NCBI GenBank assembly: GCA_016789785.1
Contig: JAEUQE010000154.1
Span: 1 to 21,549 of the forward strand
Direction: 5' to 3'
Source: Bryobacterales bacterium
GTDB taxonomy: Bacteria; Acidobacteriota; Terriglobia; Bryobacterales; Bryobacteraceae
DNA: 21,549 nt
This document shows, piece after piece, positions 6,063 through 20,066 of the stretch; position 1 is the first letter of the stretch; each line of letters opens with the position of its first letter. The notes under the pieces were generated by a model. That model was not told the DNA's origin, searched no databases, and was given only the letters and a program-made list of their open reading frames with translations. Both the position numbers and the translations under genes were made by a program.

Positions 6063-7337
6063 CTACGATATGGAAGGATCCTTGGTGATCAGCCGTGCGC
6101 CGCGATTGAACGTGAAGTAGTGAAACGCCCACTGCACCAACACCAGCAGCCGGTTTTGAAATCCGACCAGATAGAGAATGTGCACGAAGACCCACGTGAA
6201 CCAGGCGAAGAAGCCGCTGAGTTGCAGGGAGCCGAAGTTGGCGACGGCGGATGCCCGGCCAATGGTGGCGAGTTCGCCTTTGTTCCAGTAGCGGAAGGCG
6301 GGCGCCTGCGGTTCGCCCTTGATGCGGCGAGCGATGCGTTCGGCGGCATACTGCCCCATTTGGACCGCGGCCGGACACACTCCCGGGACCATGGTGCCGT
6401 CGGGGTTCGGACAGTGGGCCATGTCGCCAAGCACGAAGATTTCGCGATGCCCTTTGAGTGTGAGATCGGGCTCCACTTTGATGCGGCCCGCGCGGTCGAG
6501 TTCCGCACCGGTCTGTTCCGCGAGAGATCGCGCCAGCGGGGATGCCTGCACGCCGGCGCCCCAGAATACAGTGCGGGCGGTGATGCGCTCCGTGCCTTTG
6601 CTGGTCTCGATGCTGACCCCTTCGGCATCAATGGCAGTCACCTTCACGCCGCAGCGAGTGCGCACGCCGAGCCGGATGAGCGCCTGCTCAGCGTGATAGG
6701 ACAGGCTTTCGGGATAGACCTGCAGGACCCGTGGCGAGAAATCGATCAACAGGATCTGCGACTCCTCGGTGCGGATGCGGCGGAAGTCGCCCTTCAGTGT
6801 CTCGTTCGCGATTTCGCCAAGAGCGCCTGCGAGTTCCACGCCCGTGGGTCCCGCGCCGACGATGACGAAGGTGAGCCAACGCCGCCGCACCTCGGGATCC
6901 TCTTCGCGTTCGGCCGCCTCGAAGGCGTAGAACATGCGCCGCCGGATATCGGTGGCATCCTCAATGGTCTTGAGGCTTGGAGCATGCTGCGCCCATTCGG
7001 GATGTCCGAAGTAACTTGGGACGGCGCCGGCCGCGACAATGAGCTGGTGGTAACGGATTGCCCGCTCGCCCATGAGTACCCGCTTGCCCGCGACGTCGAT
7101 ATCGTTGACCTCGCCCAGCAGCACCTGTGTATTCTTGTTCCGGCGCAGCACCCATCGCAAGGGGGCCGCGATATCGCCGGGGGACAAGCCTCCCGTCGCC
7201 ACCTGGTACAGCAGCGGCTGGAACAGGTGAAAGTTGCGCTTGTCGATGAGTGTTACGTGAACCGGGGCTTTTCCCAAAGCCTTCGCGGCGTACAGCCCCG
7301 CAAAACCGCCGCCTACGATGACGACTTCAGCATCCAC
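6063..7337 (-). CDS. ndh: Type II NADH dehydrogenase (NDH-2)
   Basis: A 424-residue single-subunit NADH:quinone oxidoreductase that passes electrons from NADH to quinone without pumping protons. The FAD-binding Rossmann motif VIVGGGFAG is at residues 6-14, the FQPLLYQVATGGLSPGDIA quinone/FAD segment at about 42-60, the second nucleotide site VIVGAGPTGVELAG in mid-protein, the third FAD contact FVLGDMAHC, and PAAVQMGQYAA nearby. The C-terminus (LVGFQNRLLVLVQWAFHYFTF) is the amphipathic membrane-binding region typical of NDH-2. The open frame runs upstream to 7763, but only this GTG at 7337 puts the first FAD motif at the normal position; the upstream part is the membrane-protein gene read in another frame. 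No strong ribosome site is visible, so translation is probably coupled to the upstream gene, which it overlaps by 25 nt. Confidence 0.93.
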   Translation of the reverse strand: MDAEVVIVGGGFAGLYAAKALGKAPVHVTLIDKRNFHLFQPLLYQVATGGLSPGDIAAPLRWVLRRNKNTQVLLGEVNDIDVAGKRVLMGERAIRYHQLIVAAGAVPSYFGHPEWAQHAPSLKTIEDATDIRRRMFYAFEAAEREEDPEVRRRWLTFVIVGAGPTGVELAGALGEIANETLKGDFRRIRTEESQILLIDFSPRVLQVYPESLSYHAEQALIRLGVRTRCGVKVTAIDAEGVSIETSKGTERITARTVFWGAGVQASPLARSLAEQTGAELDRAGRIKVEPDLTLKGHREIFVLGDMAHCPNPDGTMVPGVCPAAVQMGQYAAERIARRIKGEPQAPAFRYWNKGELATIGRASAVANFGSLQLSGFFAWFTWVFVHILYLVGFQNRLLVLVQWAFHYFTFNRGARLITKDPSIS

Positions 7338-7738
7338 AACACCAGGATCGCACGGACGGTCCAAAGAGCCGTACGGACCCAGTTGGTGGTGACCAGCCGC
7401 TGATGCGCCTCGGCGTCGAAGCCCTGCGCGAGGATGGTGTGTTGCGGCACCTGCAGCAGCCACGTGGAAGCCCAGATCAATGCCAGCAGGATCAGCCCCA
7501 GCCAGGCCGCACCAGCGAGGACACGCGGCGGAGGCGAGATCGCGAGTGCGAGCGCCGTGGCGATCTCGATCAGCATTGGCGGGCCTACCACGAGCGTCGT
7601 GTAGTTCGAATGGAGTTGCTCGTACTCGGCAAAGGCCGTGCGCCCGACTTTGGCCATCAGCGGATAGTGAACCACCTGCACGAACCAGATCAACCCGGTC
7701 ATGTAGAGTGTCGCGGCGGCATGGATCAGCAGAATCAT
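7313..7738 (-). CDS. Small four-helix membrane protein of unknown function
   Basis: A 141-residue integral membrane protein with about four membrane segments (roughly 2-25, 46-67, 72-93, 117-136). Recognisable features are TGLIWFVQVVHYPL near the start, HSNYTTLVVGPPM, and QGFDAEAHQRLVTTNWVRT between the last helices; this pattern recurs in uncharacterised bacterial membrane proteins. The conserved-looking His residues (HYPL, QLHSNY, PQHTIL) could bind heme or a metal, which would be speculative. It is tightly packed: its ATG forms ATGA with the protease stop, and its end overlaps ndh by 25 nt. This close link suggests co-translation, and perhaps a part in membrane redox or quinone processes. 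Confidence 0.75.
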   Translation of the reverse strand: MILLIHAAATLYMTGLIWFVQVVHYPLMAKVGRTAFAEYEQLHSNYTTLVVGPPMLIEIATALALAISPPPRVLAGAAWLGLILLALIWASTWLLQVPQHTILAQGFDAEAHQRLVTTNWVRTALWTVRAILVLWMLKSSS

Positions 7739-8844
7739 GATTCCGTGGCGTTGGCGCGATCAAGGCGGCGCAGCAGAAGGAACTCCGTCAGATTCTCCGA
7801 TGTCAGCAGACCCCGTAGTTCGTTGCCTTCCATCACCAGCGCACACGTGCCGGCCTGGGCGAGCATCATCATCGCTTCGGACAGATCCATCGCGGGATCG
7901 AGCCGGAGGAAGTCGCGCTCCATTACGCCGGCGACGTAACTCTCGGGCCCTTGTTGCGCCATCGCTCGGAGCAGTGTGCCGCGGCTGAGCAGGCCGATGA
8001 CCTGCGTGCCGTTCATGACAGGGAAGTCCTGCTGCGAAGTGGCCAGCAACAAATCCGCGGCATCCCGCACCGTCTGCCCGTGCGACAACGTGCGATAGTC
8101 GGTAACCATGGCGGCACTCACCGGAACACCCTGCGTAAGCTGACGGCCCATCATGGCGGCGCTCTCCTGAGCCGCGCCGAGATACACGAAGAAGGCAATG
8201 AAGATCAACATGTAGCTTGCACTGAGCAGACCGTAGAGCCCCATGCAGATTGCGAGAAACCGCCCGGCTTTGGCGGCGAGTTCCGTGGCGCGCGCCTCCC
8301 CGTATTTCAGCGCCAGCATCGATCGCAGCACGCGGCCGCCATCCATCGGAAACGCAGGCAGCAGGTTGAAGATGGCGAGCGCGACGTTCCCCGTCGCGAT
8401 CTGGCCCAGCAGGTTGCCGCCCTGAGGGGCGAACACCTTAACCCAATCCACACTGCCGTGGATTCCGGCCGCGATTGCGATGAGTGCCGCCGCGATCACA
8501 ACGTTTACCGCGGGACCCGCGAGCGCGATCCACAGTTCTTCGGAAGGCTTCGGGTTGCGCTCCAGTTTGGCGACCCCGCCAATCGGAAACATCACGATTT
8601 CGACGGTGCGAATGCCGTATCGCCGGGAGACCAGAGCGTGGCCGAGTTCATGCAAAAGCACAGATCCGAAGAGCGCCAGCACGTAGATCGCGGCTTTCGC
8701 TCCCGAGGGCCCTTCCAGCCCCACTACACCGAGGAAGATCACGAAGAGGACAAAGGTGAAATGGAAGCGGACGGGGACTCCAAACAGTCTCAGGCCCAAG
8801 GCGCTTCCTTGCGATTTCGACGGTGTCTGGTTCGTGTTGTCCAT
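7735..8844 (-). CDS. Site-2-protease family (M50) intramembrane zinc protease with tandem CBS domains
   Basis: A 369-residue multi-pass metalloprotease. Membrane segments begin at about 27-48 and 54-66. The zinc motif HELGH is at about 65-69, followed by SRRYGIRTVEIVMFPIGGVAKL, and the second zinc ligand is in NLLPAFPMDGGR (Asp at about 168). Two CBS units follow (about 228-285 and 290-350: VSAAMVTDYRTL..., VMERDFLRLDPAMDLSEA...), which in related proteins bind adenosine nucleotides and adjust activity. This is the SpoIVFB/Rv-type M50B-CBS layout. Substrates are likely membrane proteins such as anti-sigma factors, but none is implied here. The ATG at 8844 is chosen over a TTG at 8862. Spacing from the upstream peroxiredoxin-like gene is 53 nt. 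Confidence 0.9.
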   Translation of the reverse strand: MDNTNQTPSKSQGSALGLRLFGVPVRFHFTFVLFVIFLGVVGLEGPSGAKAAIYVLALFGSVLLHELGHALVSRRYGIRTVEIVMFPIGGVAKLERNPKPSEELWIALAGPAVNVVIAAALIAIAAGIHGSVDWVKVFAPQGGNLLGQIATGNVALAIFNLLPAFPMDGGRVLRSMLALKYGEARATELAAKAGRFLAICMGLYGLLSASYMLIFIAFFVYLGAAQESAAMMGRQLTQGVPVSAAMVTDYRTLSHGQTVRDAADLLLATSQQDFPVMNGTQVIGLLSRGTLLRAMAQQGPESYVAGVMERDFLRLDPAMDLSEAMMMLAQAGTCALVMEGNELRGLLTSENLTEFLLLRRLDRANATES

Positions 8845-9903: not shown

Positions 9904-10887
9904 ATGCTTGTCGAAGCGGCGCCGAACGGAATCTACCTGCCCGAGATTGACCTCTGGCTGGACTCCCGCGAGCCTTGCCGGGCGGCGTGGATCTCACACG
10001 CGCACAGCGATCACGCACGATCCGCTCATGGGTGCGTTTTCGCGACGCCAGCAACGCTCTCACTCTATCAGGCCAGGGTCGATTTGGGTAGTGAGGCGCG
10101 CGCCGGGCTCCGGCCGCTGGCGTACGGCGAGACGGTGGAATGGAATGGCGCCCGGCTGACCGCGCTGCGGGCCGCACACATCGTAGGCGCGGCACAGCTT
10201 CTAGTGGAGTATCGCGGCGAGCGCCTCATCTACACGGGAGACATCAAGCTACGTACTCCCTTGTGCGGCGAGGCAACGGAAGTGGCCACCTGCGACCACC
10301 TGATCATCGAGTCGACCTTTGGGCTACCCGTGTTCCACTTCGTCGATTGCGACGAAGCCCGGCGGCGCATTGTGGCGTTCGCCGCGGAGTGCCTGGCGGA
10401 AGGCGCCGTACCCGCCTTTCTCGGATATGCCCTTGGAAGAGGGCAGGAGATCGTGTATGCCTTGCGTCAGGCGGGCATTCCGGTGGCGGTGCATGGGGCC
10501 ATTGCCCGCTTTCTTCCCTACTACGCGGAACAAGGTTTCGATGCGCCGGGTTGGGAGCCCTATGAACAGGGAGCCGTGAAGGGGAAGGCTCTGGTGGTGG
10601 TTCCTGGAATGCGCAAGTTCCTGGAAGCTTCCGGGAAGAACGTGCGCATCGCTTATGTCTCGGGATGGGCGGCACTGAGCAATGCACGCACGAGAGCCGG
10701 CGCGGAGCATCTGATTCCTTATTCCGATCATGCCGACTTTGAGGAATTGCTCGCGATCGTGACCCAAACCGGCGCTCGCCGCGTGGATATCGTGCATGGC
10801 TACACGGAGGCATTTGCACGCATCCTGGCGCAACGAGGTCTCCAGGCACAGCCGCTGGAAGTAACGCCGGAGGCGATCCAGGAGTAG
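9904..10887 (+). CDS. Ligase-associated DNA exonuclease (metallo-beta-lactamase/CPSF fold)
   Basis: A 327-residue MBL-fold nuclease of the type always found next to the ATP-dependent ligase in this cluster; characterised relatives are metal-dependent DNA exonucleases. The metal site is SHAHSDHA (His32, His34, Asp36, His37). Further fold marks are the AAHIVGAAQLLVEYRGERLIYTGDI segment, IIESTFGLPVF, RGQEIVYAL, and the C-terminal IPYSDHADFEELL of CPSF-like enzymes. The ATG at 9904 matches family N-termini (GIYLPEIDLWLD); the frame opens earlier, to 9811, only through non-conserved sequence. The stop is 1 nt from the ligase start. TAAAAT at 9879-9884 could be the -10 of the operon, with no good -35. 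Confidence 0.92.
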   Translation: MLVEAAPNGIYLPEIDLWLDSREPCRAAWISHAHSDHARSAHGCVFATPATLSLYQARVDLGSEARAGLRPLAYGETVEWNGARLTALRAAHIVGAAQLLVEYRGERLIYTGDIKLRTPLCGEATEVATCDHLIIESTFGLPVFHFVDCDEARRRIVAFAAECLAEGAVPAFLGYALGRGQEIVYALRQAGIPVAVHGAIARFLPYYAEQGFDAPGWEPYEQGAVKGKALVVVPGMRKFLEASGKNVRIAYVSGWAALSNARTRAGAEHLIPYSDHADFEELLAIVTQTGARRVDIVHGYTEAFARILAQRGLQAQPLEVTPEAIQE

Positions 10888-10888
10888 C

Positions 10889-12493
10889 ATGGACCAACTC
10901 GCCGAAGTCTGCGACCGTGTGGCCCAAACGAACAGCCGTAAGCGCAAGAGCGGCTATGTCGCGGATTATCTGCGCGCACTCGATGATGCCGATCTGGAAC
11001 GTGCAGTGCGCTTCCTCTGCGGGCTTCCTCTGGCAAGCACCGAGGCGCAGCTTTCCGTGGGCTACTCGAAGCTGAGAGAGGCCGCGCTTGCGGCGTCGGG
11101 CTGGGATCTGGAGACATTGCGAATCTGCTATCGCGAGGTGGGCGACGCGGGCGAGACGATTGGGCTGCTGCTCCATGGCAAGACCGCGAATCAGCCGATG
11201 ACGCTGGCCGATGCGGATCGCCTTTACCTGGAACTGCATCGCAGCCGCCCGGCGCGGAAAGTCACGTTGTTGACAGAGATCTTCGCCACATACCAGCCGC
11301 GCGCGATTCAGTACTTCGTGAAAGTGATCACCGGGAATCTGCGGATCGGACTGCAGCAGAAGATGGTGGAGGAGGCGGTGGCGGCTGCACACGGGCTGGC
11401 GCACGAACCCGTTCGGGAGGCGAGCAACCGCTCTGGCGACCTGGCGAGAGTTGCGCTGGCGGCCCGCCGGGGCGAACTGCACCAGATCGAGGCGAGCCTC
11501 TTCCATCCCATGGACTTCATGCTCGCCAAGCCGCTGGATGAAGTGGGTGACCTCGGAGACGCCGCGCACTGGTTTGTCGAGGACAAATACGATGGGATTC
11601 GCGCGCAGATTCACGCCTCGCACAACCGCGTGCAGATCTTTACGCGCGGCCTCGAAGATGTCACGGCCTCCTATCCCGAACTCACCGCGGCGATTCGCTT
11701 CCTGCCGCAGAGCCTGATCCTCGACGGCGAAATCCTCGCCTGGAAAGATGGCCGCGCTCTCAACTTCACGGTTCTGCAGCAGAGGCTCGCGCGAAAGAAA
11801 CTCACAGAGATCTACCTGCGCGAGATTCCCGTTGTGTTCATGGTCTACGACATCCTGTACCGCAACGGCGAGTTGCTGTTGGATCGAAAGCTGGAGGAGC
11901 GTCGTGGCCTGCTGGAAGAGACACTGGACGGCCGCGGGCTGCCGCTGTTGCTCTCGCCGCAGGAGCGTTTGGGTAGCGTGGATGCCATCGACAGCCGCTT
12001 TGCCGAAGCCCGGGAGCGAGGGAATGAAGGTCTGCTGCTGAAGCGCGCAGGCAGCATCTATGAGCCGGGCCGCAGAACCGGGCAATGGGTGAAAGTGAAG
12101 CGTCCGTTCGCCACTCTGGATGTGGTGATCACGGCGGCGGAGCAAGGCCACGGACGCCGCGCCACCATGCTTTCCGACTACACCTTCGCGGTGCGTTCGG
12201 GCGATCGCTTCCTGAATGTCGGCAAGGCGTACTCCGGGCTGACCGACGACGAGATCCGCGAGTTGACGAAGCTGCTTCGGACATCGGCCACCGAACGCTA
12301 CGGCCGGGTGATGCTGGTGAAGCCGGAGATCGTGCTGGAAGTCGCTTTTGACGGGATCCAGAAGAGCCCGCGGCACAAGAGCGGATTCGCGTTACGGTTT
12401 CCGAGAATCGTGCGCTGGCGTCAGGATAAGCGGGCGGATCAGGTGGACGATCTGGAGCGCGTTGTCCAGTTGTATGAGGCGTCGTTGCGATGA
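10889..12493 (+). CDS. ATP-dependent DNA ligase (cluster type)
   Basis: A 534-residue ATP-dependent ligase that seals nicked DNA by an enzyme-AMP intermediate. The N-terminal domain (about 1-200) is the DNA-binding region. Motif I is EDKYDGIR with the adenylated Lys233; then come DGEILAW (motif III), the QQRLARKK region, FMVYDILY, EGLLLKR (motif IV), and the GQWVKVKR (motif V) lysines. The C-terminal OB domain runs to the end (ATMLSDYTFAV, VGKAYSGLTDDEI). AGGAG overlaps the exonuclease end, 4 nt from the ATG at 10889. The stop overlaps the helicase start as ATGA. Length and layout are those of the bacterial ligase-associated cluster, distinct from LigD and LigC of end joining. Confidence 0.94.
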   Translation: MDQLAEVCDRVAQTNSRKRKSGYVADYLRALDDADLERAVRFLCGLPLASTEAQLSVGYSKLREAALAASGWDLETLRICYREVGDAGETIGLLLHGKTANQPMTLADADRLYLELHRSRPARKVTLLTEIFATYQPRAIQYFVKVITGNLRIGLQQKMVEEAVAAAHGLAHEPVREASNRSGDLARVALAARRGELHQIEASLFHPMDFMLAKPLDEVGDLGDAAHWFVEDKYDGIRAQIHASHNRVQIFTRGLEDVTASYPELTAAIRFLPQSLILDGEILAWKDGRALNFTVLQQRLARKKLTEIYLREIPVVFMVYDILYRNGELLLDRKLEERRGLLEETLDGRGLPLLLSPQERLGSVDAIDSRFAEARERGNEGLLLKRAGSIYEPGRRTGQWVKVKRPFATLDVVITAAEQGHGRRATMLSDYTFAVRSGDRFLNVGKAYSGLTDDEIRELTKLLRTSATERYGRVMLVKPEIVLEVAFDGIQKSPRHKSGFALRFPRIVRWRQDKRADQVDDLERVVQLYEASLR

Positions 12494-15024
12494 GCCGGTC
12501 CGGTGTCCAGGAGTTGCCGCGGGACCTTGCCCTGTGGTTCGCGGCGAGGTTTCCGCAGGGCCCTACCGCGATTCAGCAACTCGCGCTTCCGCACACACTG
12601 CGCGGTGAGAACACGTTGATTCTCGCGCCCACGGGCAACGGGAAGACGCTTGCGGCATTTCTGTCGGTTCTGGCGAGGCTTGCCCGTCAAGAAGAAGCGC
12701 TGCCCAACGCCGTATCCGCGATCTACGTGTCGCCCCTGCGATCCCTTACGCGCGATATTCTTCGCAATCTCTCTGAGCCGCTGGATGCGATCAACACCGG
12801 GCTTCCCGAACGCCTCAGCATCCGCATGGAAGTGCGCACGGGCGATACGAGCATGACCGAGCGCAGCCGCCAGCAGCGCAAGCGTCCACACCTTCTGTTG
12901 ACCACTCCCGAGAGTTTGAGTTCGCTCCTGTCGCAAACTGCCTTTCAGAAGGGGCTCGATCCAGCGGTGGTGATCGTGGATGAGATCCACGCACTTGCGG
13001 AGAACAAGCGCGGCTCGCTGCTGGCGCTGTGTCTGGAGCGATTGGAGAGCCGCGCGAAGCAGCCGGTCCAGCGGATTGGCGTGTCGGCGACGGCTTGGCC
13101 GATTGACGCCGTCACGCGTTTTCTGTGCGGTGCGCGCCCCTGTGCGGTGGCGATGCTCGATCAGCGCAAATCGCATCGTCTGGAGATCGCGCTGCCTCCG
13201 GCGGATCAGAAACTGCCGCCGGCAGGCTTCAATCCCTATCGCATCGCGCAGCCCGTTGCGGACCTTGTGGAGCGCGCGCGGTGCTCGCTGGTGTTCACCT
13301 CTACCCGATCCGCGGCAGAGCGCCTCGGCCTCGCCTTGAAGATCCTGCTCCCGGACTACGATGAGCACATCGCGGTGCATCATGGCTCCATCGAGAAGAC
13401 GGAGCGCCTGGCCATTGAGGAAGGGCTTGCCAGCGGGCGCTGGAAGGCTGTGGTGTGCAGCACAAGCCTCGAACTTGGTGTCGACTTTCAGGCTGTGGAT
13501 CAGGTGCTGTTGATCGGTGCACCTCGCGGCGTATCGCGCGCCCTGCAAAGGCTGGGGCGAAGCGGCCATCGCGTGAACGGCGTGGCGTCGGGTTCGCTGG
13601 TGCCGCTGAGTCTTCCCGATCTTGCCGAATGCGTGGCCCTGCGGCGCGCCGCGGCCGAGGGCCGGCTCGACGAGTTGCGTGTGCCACGGGCTCCGCTCGA
13701 CGTGTTGGCCCAAGTGCTGCTCGGGATGTCGGTGGAACGGGCCTGGCCGCTGGATGAGGCGTTCGAAGTGGTGCGGCAGGCCGGGCCCTATCTGGAGTTG
13801 CCCCGCAGCGACTTCGACCGAGTGATCGAGTATCTCGCCGGCGGCGGGCCGGTGCTCGGCCCAACTGGCCGGTACGGCAAGATTGTTGTCTCGGGCGGCA
13901 TGTTCCGAATCGTGTCGCCCAAAGCTGCGCGGATGTACTACTCCAACATCGGCACCATCAGCGACGACTCGCAGGTCAAGGTCGTGACCGGACGGAATCG
14001 CTATCTCGGCGCCGTGGAGGAGAGTTTCCTGTCGAGTCTTGCAGCCGGCGAGGCCTTTATCCTCGGCGGCAAGACCGTGCGCGTGAAGAGCTTCTATCAG
14101 AACATGGCAATCGTGGAACCGGCGCAGGGCGAGCAGGTGAAGACTCCGCGTTGGATGGGTGGGAAGATGCCGCTCTCGGCGCAGTTGGCTTCCGAGGAAC
14201 TCCGCTTGCGTCGCGATCTGCGCGATGCCTGGCGGCGGGGAGAATCGAAGGCCTGTATTGCAATGCTGCGCAGCACCTGGCGTCTCGATAGCGAGGCCGC
14301 GGAGCGTCTGACGGCTTTCGTGGCGCGACAGCAGCGCGCGTTTCCGATTCCAGTGGATGCTCCGGTTGCGATTGAGCGTTTGCGTCACCGGCGGGCCGAG
14401 TTGCTGCTGTTTCATGTGGTGGCGGGGCGTAGCGTGAATCGCGCACTGGCTTTTGTCGTGACACAACGTCTCGGGCTGCCTGGTAGCGTTGTCGCAAACT
14501 TCGATGATCACGGATTTCTCTTGTCGATCGACCGAAAGGCTGCGCCATCCGAGAGCTTACTGCGCGGCACGTTCCGCCCCGCGCATTGGAGCCAGGATTT
14601 GCGGAGTGCACTCGAAGCGAACGAGGCGCTCGGGCGTAAGTTTCGGGGCGTTGCGGAGACAGGCCAGTTGATTCCGAAGCGGTCGCTGCAGGGGCCCATC
14701 TCGTCGAAGTCATCGACGTGGAGCAGTGCGCTGCTTTACAAAACACTGCTTAAGCATGAGCCGGATCATCCGCTGGTGCGCGAGGCGATTCGCGAGGTGA
14801 TGGAAGATCAACTGGACGCGGAGCGTGCGGAGCGCGAGGCGGAACGCATCCACAACGCACCGTGGGAAGTTCATGATCTCCCGCGGCCCTCGCCATTTGC
14901 GCTGCCCCTGTTTGCGATGTTCAACCGCGAGGTGGTGCAGTCGGCGGATCCTGACCGTGCTCTGGACGACTACTTCGCGGCTGCCTACGATGAGTGGCAG
15001 CAAGAGGTCGAGGTCGTGGCATGA
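12490..15024 (+). CDS. Ligase-associated Lhr-core DEXH-box helicase
   Basis: An 844-residue superfamily 2 helicase. Motif I (Walker A) APTGNGKT is at 46-53, motif Ia SPLRSLTRDI at 81-90, TTPESL, motif II DEIH at 164-167, motif III SAT at 199-201, motif V TSLELGVDF about 325-333 and motif VI LGRSGHR at 355-361. The remaining residues (about 400-840) form the winged-helix and Lhr-core C-terminal domains: GPTGRYGKIVVSGG, YYSNIGTISDDSQVKV, LGAVEESFL, then RRHRAELLLFHVVAGR near the end. These enzymes unwind DNA or RNA:DNA 3' to 5' with ATP. Size is that of Lhr-Core rather than full Lhr. Both ends overlap neighbours by ATGA, supporting one polycistronic message. Confidence 0.95.
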   Translation: MSRSGVQELPRDLALWFAARFPQGPTAIQQLALPHTLRGENTLILAPTGNGKTLAAFLSVLARLARQEEALPNAVSAIYVSPLRSLTRDILRNLSEPLDAINTGLPERLSIRMEVRTGDTSMTERSRQQRKRPHLLLTTPESLSSLLSQTAFQKGLDPAVVIVDEIHALAENKRGSLLALCLERLESRAKQPVQRIGVSATAWPIDAVTRFLCGARPCAVAMLDQRKSHRLEIALPPADQKLPPAGFNPYRIAQPVADLVERARCSLVFTSTRSAAERLGLALKILLPDYDEHIAVHHGSIEKTERLAIEEGLASGRWKAVVCSTSLELGVDFQAVDQVLLIGAPRGVSRALQRLGRSGHRVNGVASGSLVPLSLPDLAECVALRRAAAEGRLDELRVPRAPLDVLAQVLLGMSVERAWPLDEAFEVVRQAGPYLELPRSDFDRVIEYLAGGGPVLGPTGRYGKIVVSGGMFRIVSPKAARMYYSNIGTISDDSQVKVVTGRNRYLGAVEESFLSSLAAGEAFILGGKTVRVKSFYQNMAIVEPAQGEQVKTPRWMGGKMPLSAQLASEELRLRRDLRDAWRRGESKACIAMLRSTWRLDSEAAERLTAFVARQQRAFPIPVDAPVAIERLRHRRAELLLFHVVAGRSVNRALAFVVTQRLGLPGSVVANFDDHGFLLSIDRKAAPSESLLRGTFRPAHWSQDLRSALEANEALGRKFRGVAETGQLIPKRSLQGPISSKSSTWSSALLYKTLLKHEPDHPLVREAIREVMEDQLDAERAEREAERIHNAPWEVHDLPRPSPFALPLFAMFNREVVQSADPDRALDDYFAAAYDEWQQEVEVVA

Positions 15025-15782
15025 CCCGGATGGTCGAAATGGCCGCCGGCCGGTGGGCGCATGCATCGGGAGCGCTGTGGCTTGCCGCAAGTGGTACTCT
15101 GCTGATCGCCGACGCCCATCTCGGCTATGGTTGGGCGATGCGGCGGCGAGGTCAACTGGGTCCCGTACACGATGAAGAGGCAGTGCGAAAGTTGCGGGAG
15201 GTGGTTTCGGAAATGCAGCCGCGGCACGTCGTCTTTCTCGGCGACCTGGTGCATGCGCCGAGACCGTCGCCCGCGGAATTCGCGCTGTTGAACGGTGCGC
15301 TGGAGTGGCTGATCGCGCGGGCCAGGGTGACCCTGGTGGAGGGCAACCACGACCGGGGCTTCCGGCGCGATTTTGGGCATCTGGCAATGGACGTCTGCCG
15401 GGAGTGGACAGACGGGCAATTGCGTGCCATTCACGGTGACCGTGCTGGCGCTGACACCGCAATCCGTCATACAGTGGCGGGCCATTTCCATCCCTCCTTG
15501 AGCCTGCGGGATGCTGCCGGAGCCAACCATCTTCTTCCCGTGTTTCTCTATGACGAGGCCGCAAGCGTGATGCCAGCCTTCTCGCCATTCGCGGCGGGCG
15601 GAGACATCCGGCGGGGGGTGCCTGAAACCATGGTCGCGCTCTTCTCGGGTACTGGAGTTGGTGTGGTCGCGGCAAGTGGGAAACAGGCGAAGGCGTTGCG
15701 TCGGTTCCGGCTCACTGCCTCGGCGCATGCTCAGGGCGACGCTCACACTTGGGCCCCAAAAAACAGACGGCGTTTGGGCTGA
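15021..15782 (+). CDS. pdeM: Ligase-associated metallophosphoesterase, PdeM-type nuclease
   Basis: A 253-residue calcineurin-like phosphoesterase, the fourth member of the repair cluster; relatives are manganese-dependent DNA nucleases. Metal motifs: DAHLG (31-35), GDLVH (74-78), GNHD (108-111), IHGD, and GHFHP in the second half. LLPVF and the following Ala/Gly-rich loop match the family. The ATG at 15021 overlaps the helicase TGA by four bases. The last residues (about TWAPKNRRRLG) are read through the left arm of a large hairpin that contains the stop codon, so the C-terminal end is not conserved in the family as I know it. The whole set is exonuclease, ligase, helicase, phosphoesterase without insertion. 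Confidence 0.92.
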   Translation: MTRMVEMAAGRWAHASGALWLAASGTLLIADAHLGYGWAMRRRGQLGPVHDEEAVRKLREVVSEMQPRHVVFLGDLVHAPRPSPAEFALLNGALEWLIARARVTLVEGNHDRGFRRDFGHLAMDVCREWTDGQLRAIHGDRAGADTAIRHTVAGHFHPSLSLRDAAGANHLLPVFLYDEAASVMPAFSPFAAGGDIRRGVPETMVALFSGTGVGVVAASGKQAKALRRFRLTASAHAQGDAHTWAPKNRRRLG

Positions 15783-16907: not shown

Positions 16908-17831
16908 TTAGCCACGAACCGCTTCGCCCGGAACCACCTCTACCGCGGAAGCGGCCGATCGGGCGCGGACAAGCGCGCTGTATTGGTAGGCGGGGCCGAG
17001 GGCGAAGGCTGCCGCCGCGGGAAACCAGATGAACCAAGTGATCGATCCGAGCGGCCACGGAATGTGCCCCCAGGAGGATGCCCACAGACCCACATCGCCC
17101 AGCGAAGTGAGCAGGATCCCTGCCGAATAGGCGCCCCAGCACTTGCCGAGCAGCCCGCCTCGCATCCGGCGGGAGGATCTCCAGAGCACGACAGCCTCCA
17201 GGGTGAGGACAGTAAGCATCAGGTCCGTGACAAGTGTGATGTAGTTGAACGGGCTCAGCCTCCGGGCGAATTGGGGGAAGTACTGGATTACCTCATGAAT
17301 CTGGTGCGCGGCGAAGGTGAGACTGATTGTGATGATCAGGTAGTCGGCGGAACGCAACCTTCCCACCAGCCCAAGGCGGCGGTAGCAACGGATGGCGATG
17401 CCAAGCCCACCCGCCATCAATGCCATGTGCATGGGGCCGGAGATCGCGAGCCCCATCTCCCTCGCCGGGCCAGTGACCAGGAGTTGTCCCGCTTCCGGAA
17501 GCAAGGGAGCCACGATGTGCGCAATGAACGTTCCTCCGGCGCGGCACGCCCCCGCCATGAGAAGCAGAAACCACGACAGTTCCATCGGCTCTCCCGGCAG
17601 GAACGATCTCCATGTCATGAACGCGGCCCAGGCCTCCACCACGCAGGTGAACAGCAGAAACATGGAGCCCGCATAGCGGAAGTACTCGAGCACCCAGATC
17701 ACGTCCCCGGTCAGGGCCCACGCACCCATGCTTGCCAGCCCCAATGTCAGTTGAATGTACAGCACCACCATGATCTGGCGGGGAAGTGCCGTGCAAAACG
17801 AGGAGGGGAGCGTTAGGGCTGCGGTTGGCAT
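16908..17831 (-). CDS. Polytopic membrane protein in ECF sigma operon
   Basis: A 307-residue membrane protein with about eight segments (roughly 20-41, 50-70, 86-106, 125-147, 165-185, 198-216, 231-252, 260-282). I do not recognise the family. Charged or polar residues in or near the membrane include His in FIAHIV, GPMHMALMAGG and FAAHQIHEVIQYF; the last pair could bind heme or a metal, but this is inference. The ATG at 17831 overlaps the preceding gene by 19 nt, so co-expression with the sigma pair is likely; a longer start at 17915 would overlap that gene by more than 100 nt and lacks a membrane segment. It could be the signal receptor or the output of the sigma factor. Confidence 0.75.
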   Translation of the reverse strand: MPTAALTLPSSFCTALPRQIMVVLYIQLTLGLASMGAWALTGDVIWVLEYFRYAGSMFLLFTCVVEAWAAFMTWRSFLPGEPMELSWFLLLMAGACRAGGTFIAHIVAPLLPEAGQLLVTGPAREMGLAISGPMHMALMAGGLGIAIRCYRRLGLVGRLRSADYLIITISLTFAAHQIHEVIQYFPQFARRLSPFNYITLVTDLMLTVLTLEAVVLWRSSRRMRGGLLGKCWGAYSAGILLTSLGDVGLWASSWGHIPWPLGSITWFIWFPAAAAFALGPAYQYSALVRARSAASAVEVVPGEAVRG

Positions 17832-18250
17832 GATTGCTCGCGGAACTTCCGCCTTAACATGATGGTGCTTCGATAGCCGAGCAATACACCGAGTTGCCGT
17901 TCCAGCGTGAGCCAATTGCTCTCGTTCAGGTTGGACGCATACTCCTCGCCGAGGAGATCGCGGACAACCTCTCTGGCCAGCGCGCTGGGAGGCAGTGGCT
18001 TACGGCTTTCGCCGATGTCGGCGAGCAGGCGGCGCCGTACCGCTTCTATCCTCGCTTCAAGATCACCCTCGACTTGCAGCCCGGCTCGATGCGGAACCGC
18101 GCGCAGACGGTCGCGACAGGGCCGGCAAGTCAGTACATGCAGGGAAATACCCCACGACGAGAATGGTCCCGCAGCTGGGCCATTCTGGTGGACTATCAAT
18201 TCGTTATCGGATGGATGCCAGTTTCTGGAGAAGACGCCCACAAATTCCAA
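17813..18250 (-). CDS. Soluble zinc-finger anti-sigma-like protein
   Basis: A 145-residue protein directly after the sigma gene. Near its start HPSDNELIVHQNG is followed by HVLTCRPC: His38, Cys42 and Cys45 make the HxxxCxxC pattern of zinc-binding anti-sigma (ZAS) domains, with the earlier HP...EL as usual in this class. No membrane segment follows, unlike most ZAS anti-sigma proteins; the rest is helical (DLEARIEAVRRRLLADI, REVVRDLLGEEYASNLNES, WLTLERQLGVLLGYR, MLRRKFREQ). It may hold the sigma factor inactive in the cytoplasm. Start is TTG at 18250, immediately after the sigma TAG; a GTG at 18241 is an alternative. A short hairpin (18161-18185) lies within the coding region. Confidence 0.65.
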   Translation of the reverse strand: MEFVGVFSRNWHPSDNELIVHQNGPAAGPFSSWGISLHVLTCRPCRDRLRAVPHRAGLQVEGDLEARIEAVRRRLLADIGESRKPLPPSALAREVVRDLLGEEYASNLNESNWLTLERQLGVLLGYRSTIMLRRKFREQSCQPQP

Positions 18251-18763
18251 CTATCTTAACCGGTCCAAGCGTACTCGCAGGTGGAGCTTGCGGAGTGCCC
18301 TGCCCAGAAGAGTTCCAACGGTTCCCATTGCGATGCTTAGCGTATCAGCGATCTCGCTATACTTCAAGCCCCGGCTTCGAAGACGCACCACTTCAGCTTC
18401 CCGGGGCGAAAGGAACTCTTCAAGCCTCATCATCACCTGATCCGGCAGATCCAGAAGTTCGCCACTTACGGCTGACTGCGGAAGTCTCCCGAGAAGGTTG
18501 CGGCGAACGTCGGCCAAGAGCCAGCCTTTCGGATCGTCGACCACGCCGCCTGCGTTGAGCACGCTGTAATAGGCGAAGAAGCTCTCCTGCAACACCTCCT
18601 CGGCAGTGATGTTGTCCGCGCCCATTGCGGCGGCGGCGAGCAGAAGATCCGCCGCGTGTTGCGAGAAAACCTCCAGCGCCTCAGACTGCGCGCACTTGTC
18701 CGCGGGAGCCTGCGTTTCCGCAGCCCGTCCAAGAGGGGTTGAGATCTCAGCGTGGTCGGGAAT
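18251..18763 (-). CDS. ECF-type RNA polymerase sigma factor with probable ATT start
   Basis: A short ECF sigma factor of about 170 residues. Region 2 runs at residues 30-95 (EVFSQHAADLLLAAAAMG, TAEEVLQESFFAYYSVLN, PKGWLLADVRRNLL) and recognises the -10 element. Region 4 runs at 104-165 (RLEEFLSPREAEVVRLRSRGLKYSEIADTL, GTVGTLLGRALRKLHLRV). The only ATG in frame, at 18625, would cut off the first helix of region 2. Between it and the in-frame TAG at 18776-18778 there is no ATG, GTG or TTG in this frame. The ATT at 18763 follows GGAGGTG with 4 nt between them (6 nt from the GGAGG core), a near-perfect ribosome site. Other chances are CTG at 18676 with poor spacing, a frameshift, or a base error. 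A good promoter lies just upstream. The next two genes look co-transcribed. Confidence 0.75.
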   Translation of the reverse strand: MPDHAEISTPLGRAAETQAPADKCAQSEALEVFSQHAADLLLAAAAMGADNITAEEVLQESFFAYYSVLNAGGVVDDPKGWLLADVRRNLLGRLPQSAVSGELLDLPDQVMMRLEEFLSPREAEVVRLRSRGLKYSEIADTLSIAMGTVGTLLGRALRKLHLRVRLDRLR

Positions 18764-18767
18764 TGGG

Positions 18768-18774
18768 CACCTCC
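18768..18774 (-). promoter_or_regulatory. Strong Shine-Dalgarno site deciding the ATT start of the sigma gene
   Basis: GGAGGTG on the minus strand matches seven bases of the anti-SD complement. The GGAGG core is 6 nt before ATT 18763. The GTGs overlapping it are in a frame that ends at a TGA after a few codons, so they are not good starts for the sigma. Confidence 0.7.
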
Positions 18775-18784
18775 ACTAAACGTT

Positions 18785-18814
18785 TATGATACGAACAAAC
18801 TTCCGGGCGAGCAA
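18785..18814 (-). promoter_or_regulatory. Promoter of the sigma operon, with symmetrical -10
   Basis: On the minus strand TTGCTC (18814-18809) and TATCAT (18791-18786) are 17 nt apart, fitting a housekeeping sigma promoter, and would start a leader about 17 nt before ATT 18763. The plus strand of the same bases reads TATGAT (18785-18790) with TTGGGC 16 nt upstream (18763-18768), so one TATGATA element could drive both directions, toward the sigma operon and toward the PyrE-like gene. Match to consensus is by eye. Confidence 0.45.
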
Positions 18815-18847
18815 TCCGCGCGAAGCACACCAGTGGAACGGCTCGCT

Positions 18848-18871
18848 ATGTCTTGCGCAATGTCTTGCGCA
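18848..18871 (+). repeat. Perfect tandem 12-bp repeat
   Basis: ATGTCTTGCGCA occurs twice in a row (18848-18859, 18860-18871) in the leader between the divergent promoter and the PyrE-like gene. It could be a pair of binding sites on one helix face or a slippage duplication. Confidence 0.8.
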
Positions 18872-18920
18872 GCGTCCGCTCGCGCACGCCAACCCAATCA
18901 CACAGAGCTACACTGAAGGC

Positions 18921-19535
18921 ATGGATCTCGTACCCTCGGAACAAGACGTGATTGGGTTGCTAAAGCAGACCGGCGCACTGCGTCACGGTCACTTTGTTTA
19001 TCCCAACGGTCTGCATGCCGATGAATACTTACAGGTATCTTTGGCGATGCGGCACTATGAGCACTTAAGAACTCTCAGCGTGGGTTTGAGCCGGAAAGTT
19101 CGTGCGAATTCGGAGTTGCGGGCGATGACCGCGCAACTGTCAGTGGTTGCACCTGCCGGAGGCGGCGTACCGGTCGCCTACGGGGTGTGCGAAGCCCTGC
19201 GTGCCAAGCAGGTCTACTGGGCCGAATCGAGTGGAGAGGATACTCCGCTTCATTTCCGGCAGTACTTTGTGAGTCAGCCCGGCGAGAAAGTCTTGCTGGT
19301 GGATGATATTTTCCGCTCCGGCAAGAGGTTGCAGGAACTGAAGTCCCTGGTGGAGAAGAATGGCGGTGAGGTGGTTGGGCTGGCTGTAATGGTGTATCAG
19401 CCGACGCCCCGCACTCCCGACTTCGGCGCCATCCCGCTGTTCTATTTGGCCAAGCTGGATGCGCACTATTCCAACGATGCGGCGTCGTGCTTGCTGTGCC
19501 GCAAGGGATTGTCGCTGGAAGCTGTGTGGGTGTAA
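18921..19535 (+). CDS. Orotate phosphoribosyltransferase-like protein (PyrE family)
   Basis: A 204-residue type I phosphoribosyltransferase. The PRPP-binding loop is VLLVDDIFRSGKRL (about 124-137), in the place of the usual VLxVDDVxTTG; the two acidic residues are kept, while the third part is FRSG rather than TTGG. The N-terminal region (LLKQTGALRHGHFVYPNGLHADEYLQ) resembles PyrE hood and substrate loops, with ALRHGHF in place of AL..G.F. Near the end Cys190 and Cys193 in SCLLCRKGLSLE form a pattern seen in some PyrE-like proteins. It could make orotidine phosphate, or use another base. The ATG at 18921 has GAAGG just before it; the frame opens to 18786 but the upstream part is not conserved. 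TACACT (18909-18914) ends 6 nt before the start, so a leaderless transcript is possible. Confidence 0.78.
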   Translation: MDLVPSEQDVIGLLKQTGALRHGHFVYPNGLHADEYLQVSLAMRHYEHLRTLSVGLSRKVRANSELRAMTAQLSVVAPAGGGVPVAYGVCEALRAKQVYWAESSGEDTPLHFRQYFVSQPGEKVLLVDDIFRSGKRLQELKSLVEKNGGEVVGLAVMVYQPTPRTPDFGAIPLFYLAKLDAHYSNDAASCLLCRKGLSLEAVWV

Positions 19536-19783: not shown

Positions 19784-20060
19784 GCTCTCCAGAAACTTCC
19801 GTCTCGGAGTTACCGGATTTCGCCCAGATTGCGCCGCCTGAGTGTCACACCATCCGGTGGCACATCGCTCCTGTCCAGATCGAGTTTCAGGTTCCATGAG
19901 CGGGATCGCGCCCCGCTCGGGGGCTCTCCAGAAACTTCCGCGTCGGAGTTGCCGGATTTCGGCCAGATTGCGCCGCCCGAGCCACACCATCCGATGGCAC
20001 ATCGCTCCTGTCCAGATCGAGTTTCAGGTTCCGTGAGCGGGATCTCGCCCCGCTCGGGGG
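19784..20060 (+). repeat. Two tandem copies of a structured ~139-nt element
   Basis: Copy one is 19784-19922, copy two 19923-20060; they differ at about a dozen positions including a short gap. Each has three small hairpins: AACTTCCG/CGGAGTT (19794-19811; 19933-19950), CCAT-CCG-GTGG or CCAT-CCG-ATGG (19850-19860; 19987-19997), and GAGCGGG/CCCGCTC (19898-19918; 20035-20055). The single change inside the second stem keeps pairing (T-A versus T-G). Confidence 0.85.
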
Positions 20061-20066
20061 CTGAAG

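Follow-up and report, generated by a model that had tools for sequence, protein, structure and literature searches.

The nearest sigma-factor precedent for gating by initiation fidelity is Streptomyces sigR. In the available excerpts of its description (PMC5472188), the true start of sigR is GTC, and the annotated GTG sits within the AGGAGGTG ribosome-binding site. The experiments reported there showed that the GTC start is repressed by IF3, and that a canonical codon puts SigR in excess over RsrA and leaves the response unregulated. The same excerpts give the start codon in Streptomyces genomes as GTC in 32 of 34 and GTT in 2 of 34. AUU starts are described for E. coli infC and pcnB (excerpts of PMC9410913), and in the one paper from our search where 'AUU start codon' and 'sigma factor' occur together, the accessible portion applies the former term to infC (PMC5730168). 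In S. aureus, near-cognate starts with extended Shine-Dalgarno sequences are described for cvfC1 (AUU) and ccpN (AUA) in excerpts of PMC13009471. A preliminary description of the locus studied here had named infC as the known AUU case; pcnB and cvfC1 show that it is not the only one. Our search of the open-access literature returned no AUU-started sigma factor and no non-canonical starts in Acidobacteria.

We analysed a 21,549-nucleotide stretch of Bryobacterales contig JAEUQE010000154.1 (the window). The gene for a 170-residue ECF-type sigma factor lies on its minus strand at 18251..18763, counted from ATT to stop inclusive. Its reading frame is bounded on the 5′ side by an in-frame TAG (18776..18778, minus strand). 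From there it reads TAG (18778-18776) TGG AGG TGC CCA ATT (18763-18761) CCC GAC and stays open until TAG 18253-18251. The earliest canonical start is ATG 18623..18625 (minus), which is also the start chosen in the public gene call, P0001; as the preliminary description had said, the frame contains no ATG, GTG or TTG between this codon and the upstream TAG. The proposed AUU start, ATT at 18761..18763 (minus), stands behind an extended Shine-Dalgarno sequence, GGAGGTG (18768..18774, minus), with a 4-nt spacer (CCCA), and the well-spaced site and the 170-residue reading claimed earlier were both confirmed. On the sequence evidence, this AUU is probably a real translation start, and we infer that it is used in vivo.

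The strength of the ribosome-binding site argues for that start. Upstream of ATT 18763, the predicted duplex with the 16S 3′ end reached -12.9 kcal/mol, a value equalled or bettered at 0.077% of 14,350 window positions (each third position on both strands), and the site is thus stronger than chance would give. GGAGGTG itself occurs three times in the window, the two strands taken together. ATG 18625 has no Shine-Dalgarno sequence (+1.4 kcal/mol). The other codons that we scored in the sigma frame were all much weaker, at -6.0 (ACG 18715), -5.6 (GTT 18670), -5.0 (CTG 18643), -2.6 (AAG 18697), -1.5 (CTG 18676), +0.4 (ATC 18745) and +0.7 kcal/mol (AGG 18772). In a predicted RNA fold of 75 nt from 18780, the AUU is unpaired and the Shine-Dalgarno sequence partly paired, a prediction that we set aside. 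Further upstream, a TATCAT at 18791-18786, spotted by eye as a promoter candidate, was set aside as well; the promoter scan gave none.

The gene product is an ECF-type sigma factor. Sigma region 4 was matched at its C terminus by two Pfam models (Sigma70_r4_2, 31.5 bits against a cut-off of 25.7; Sigma70_r4, 27.5 against 24.1), with the LuxR-type GerE model slightly above both at 33.9 bits. Pfam reported no sigma region 2 in the window protein at E values up to 5, and its relatives P0002, P0003 and P0014 gave scores below the cut-off; judged by these profiles, region 2 of the window protein is diverged. ECF models of NCBIfam also matched the protein, with scores under their cut-offs. A profile of 20 relatives aligned at E 3.6e-19 with M. 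tuberculosis SigL, covering positions 14-168, and a structure model built from those 20 sequences (mean pLDDT 86.6, pTM 0.52) predicted sigma-2 helices at residues 13-46, 51-70 and 78-93, followed by the helices of region 4. Foldseek returned two matches with E <= 0.001, both of them ECF sigma factors (SigL, 1.1e-4; BldN, 3.9e-4), at a TM of ~0.35, a low value that is expected if domain placement differs. Because ATG 18625 is residue 47, a start there would lose the whole first sigma-2 helix, which bears out the earlier remark that region 2 is incomplete from this ATG. A start at CTG 18676, which is residue 30, would cut the same helix.

Relatives carry the sigma frame through the proposed start. 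Three protein searches gave a focal family of five: P0001 (the window's own call), P0002, P0003, P0004 and P0006. Their gene calls fall on both sides of the aligned ATT, three of five beginning downstream and two upstream: one internal Met is the called start of both P0001 and P0006, P0004 is called at another downstream Met, and P0002 and P0003 begin 14 and 5 residues upstream. Both of these long relatives have Ile at the position aligned with the window ATT. Directly before it P0002 has WRCP, the same residues as the window between TAG and ATT, as would be expected if GGAGGTG is conserved. In P0003 the residues are MEGGT, encodable by a AAGGAGGT-like site when worked out by hand, and the scan gave GGAGG at 4 nt. 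Over residues 1-29, P0002 is identical to the window at 14/29 positions and P0003 at 9/29, with a one-codon gap in the alignment, and this in-frame conservation makes the stretch look translated. The Met that P0003 has five codons before Ile makes a canonical start possible in that protein.

These relatives bear on two rival readings of the locus. A base error or recent mutation, with a canonical start misread as ATT or just lost, is very unlikely: the window sequence does come from one assembly, but Ile stands at the same place in P0002 and P0003, which lie on other contigs, and P0004 and P0006 likewise have no upstream call. Slightly less credible still is a frameshift, programmed or due to assembly error, in which translation would start at GTG 18776 or 18770 and have to switch to the sigma frame ahead of TGA 18749. 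The neighbouring frame (GTG GAG GTG CCC AAT TCC CGA CCA CGC TGA) is indeed open for nine codons, up to TGA 18749-18747, and a +1 shift in that stretch would reach the sigma frame. However, neither GTG 18776 (+0.5 kcal/mol) nor GTG 18770 (-1.2 kcal/mol) has a usable Shine-Dalgarno sequence, the latter codon falls within GGAGGTG itself, and in P0002 the sigma frame still reads WRCPI through this stretch, which argues against an indel. The preliminary description had ranked a base error or nearby frameshift as the main rival to an AUU start; since relatives share the frame and the Ile and have no consistently placed canonical start, we consider both improbable.

A sister family comprising P0011 (source name Acidobacteria), P0012, P0014, P0015 and P0016 has a similar pattern. 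Its calls P0011 and P0015 begin at downstream Mets, and P0012, P0014 and P0016 extend past the aligned Ile, which opens the motif I[SA]DF in all three. P0012 and P0014 share 24/34 residues after this Ile and 1/10 before it. By comparison, P0014 and P0016 are identical at 6/10 positions before it, their Met among them, so a canonical start is possible in these two. Measured to the Q59 column, called starts of the two families spread widely, between 13 and 85 residues before it, and this disorder favours the AUU start. Among distant ECF proteins taken as a control, five are called 38-41 residues before that column, two at 56 and P0008 at 52; P0019 (58) and P0021 (45) were left out because their records have no initial Met.

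Called starts of this kind could also speak for initiation further downstream, at a near-cognate codon such as CTG 18676 (residue 30) or ACG 18715 (residue 17). P0004, P0011 and P0015 are annotated from near residue 30, and the five distant proteins begin only 38-41 residues before Q59. Against this, the CTG is weak and the ACG moderate beside the -12.9 kcal/mol at ATT, residues 1-29 are conserved in frame, and the first helix is predicted from residue 13. We therefore judge a downstream start unlikely and keep to AUU 18763.

The preliminary description had looked to homologues for a retained start and Shine-Dalgarno sequence. At the protein level they keep the Ile, preceded by residues that could encode such a site. 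We scored whether the five residues before Ile can encode GGAGG, AGGAG, GAGGT or AAGGA at a spacing of 3-11 nt, and they can in 5/5 long relatives (P0002, P0003, P0012, P0014 and P0016). P0016 passes at the aligned Ile, I12, and fails at a nearby one, I10. The test discriminates weakly, given that a quarter of control peptides pass: 25% of 7,868 5-mers drawn from the collected proteins, relatives included, and the window genes, and, for the 327 of them followed by Ile, 26%. Because the relatives are not independent of one another, we count the outcome as suggestive only. The aligned Ile in 5/5 long relatives is consistent with a codon in them that may be AUU, as against AUC or AUA.

Searches for the DNA of closer relatives covered several routes. 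A first contig search matched 422 stretches, none of which was confirmed; of the 14 matched by a second, one was confirmed, as a distant ECF gene at 30% identity in a Gemmatimonadetes MAG (L001). In 394 relatives of that MAG, 51 had a match at E <= 1e-8, the best at 46.5 bits, and no ortholog appeared among the up to eight candidates scored per genome; as a yardstick, P0002, P0003, P0004 and P0006 scored 200-324 bits in the protein search. A ligase search of 99 relatives of the MAG (67 with a match) and a zf-HC2 search of one genome gave no route to a closer genome. Sigma-like frames were read by motif in 10 of the loci L001-L022, with L002-L005 outside the scan. Viral contigs, plasmids and phages yielded no member of the sigma family, the plasmid search giving one Paenibacillus record at 36.7% that was not a member either.

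Taken across both families, the pattern raises the possibility, which we put forward tentatively, that an AUH start (perhaps mostly AUU) with an extended Shine-Dalgarno sequence is ancestral in two clades of ECF sigma factors, probably acidobacterial to judge by the source name of P0011, and evolved independently of sigR; limiting sigma dosage by way of initiation fidelity would then have evolved on two or more occasions. In the mechanism we favour, GGAGGUG would direct initiation of the 170-residue sigma factor to AUU 18763, 4 nt further on. Such a near-cognate start would be old, with Ile at the same place in relatives and a canonical codon not consistently placed, and the strong Shine-Dalgarno sequence would make good the poor codon-anticodon fit. 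IF3 and ordinary initiation fidelity would keep sigma synthesis low. The neighbouring probable anti-sigma factor would then be in excess and hold the switch off without a signal. By analogy with the known systems, IF3 repression of an AUU-started sigma factor combined with anti-sigma excess is plausible.

The candidate anti-sigma factor is encoded by the next ORF (17813..18250, minus strand), which adjoins the sigma stop and starts at TTG 18250 or GTG 18241. It contains HPSDNEL and an H-x3-C-x2-C motif (H38, C42 and C45, numbered from TTG 18250), which we take to be the signature of zinc anti-sigma (ZAS) factors. Neither Pfam (E values up to 5, zf-HC2 included) nor NCBIfam gave a match to it, and for this reason we grade it only as a probable zinc anti-sigma factor. 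Its single-sequence structure model (mean pLDDT 55.5) was too poor for use. A third ORF of the apparent operon (16908..17831, minus strand), whose ATG 17831 lies within the end of the previous ORF, has three hydrophobic stretches in a Kyte-Doolittle scan and no Pfam match, and probably encodes a membrane protein.

Set beside sigR-rsrA as excerpted in PMC5472188, the locus likewise combines an ECF sigma factor, an extended Shine-Dalgarno sequence (the sigR one given above, GGAGGTG here) ahead of a non-canonical start misannotated by gene callers, and an anti-sigma gene next door; here the start is a proposed one and the anti-sigma gene a candidate. In contrast to sigR, the codon is ATT, not GTC or GTT, and the sigma family is a different one; the start, the IF3 repression and the anti-sigma excess are experimental results there and what we infer here. 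The trait that links the two at ATT 18763 is a non-canonical codon behind an extended Shine-Dalgarno sequence, with a conserved N terminus that has no canonical start. With infC and pcnB the window gene would share the AUU start, which in infC is discriminated by IF3 (excerpts of PMC9410913). It differs from infC, autoregulated by its own product, and from pcnB, another kind of protein, in being a sigma factor. The S. aureus genes in the PMC13009471 excerpts have an AUH start and, close to it, an extended Shine-Dalgarno sequence, the two being conserved jointly, as is proposed here; they also resemble the window gene in regulatory role, ccpN being a transcription regulator and cvfC1 a possible one. 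Unlike the window gene they are not sigma factors, and their starts were mapped with retapamulin and reporters.

The same comparisons bear on a reading in which the AUU start is real and has no regulatory role, the Shine-Dalgarno sequence offsetting the codon so that output is as from GTG or TTG. The site is among the window's strongest, as this would have it. Yet in S. aureus, grown in poor medium, expression from non-canonical starts was still ~10% of that from AUG despite extended Shine-Dalgarno sequences (excerpts of PMC13009471), and sigR is repressed by IF3 despite AGGAGGTG (excerpts of PMC5472188), so we see an unregulated start as the minor prospect, with perhaps some chance of being right. 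If regulation through AUU is borne out, the gene would likely be a second, independent case of IF3-limited sigma synthesis, at a codon other than that of sigR. A whole set of sigma factors would then have misannotated N termini, and a transcriptional switch would be tied to how faithfully translation is initiated. Disagreement among gene calls on the start of a family would then be a usable signal of hidden non-canonical starts.

Several other features of the window were recorded. Divergent from the sigma gene, on the opposite strand, lies an orotate phosphoribosyltransferase-like ORF (18786-19535) whose family match begins at residue 55, so that its true start is probably ATG 18921 and not ATG 18786. 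Rfam and tRNA scans of the whole window were empty. An NDH-2-like ORF (6063-7763) has its Pfam match only from residue 146, and TTG 7763 is the only canonical start in its first 80 codons. An apparent DNA-ligase cluster (9904-15782) holds, in tandem, an ORF with no Pfam match, an ATP-dependent DNA ligase, an Lhr-type helicase and a metallophosphoesterase. An intergenic tandem duplication of ~138 bp occupies window positions 19784-20062; its arms are 92% alike between 19784-19842 and 19923-19981 and 96% alike between 19846-19925 and 19983-20062.
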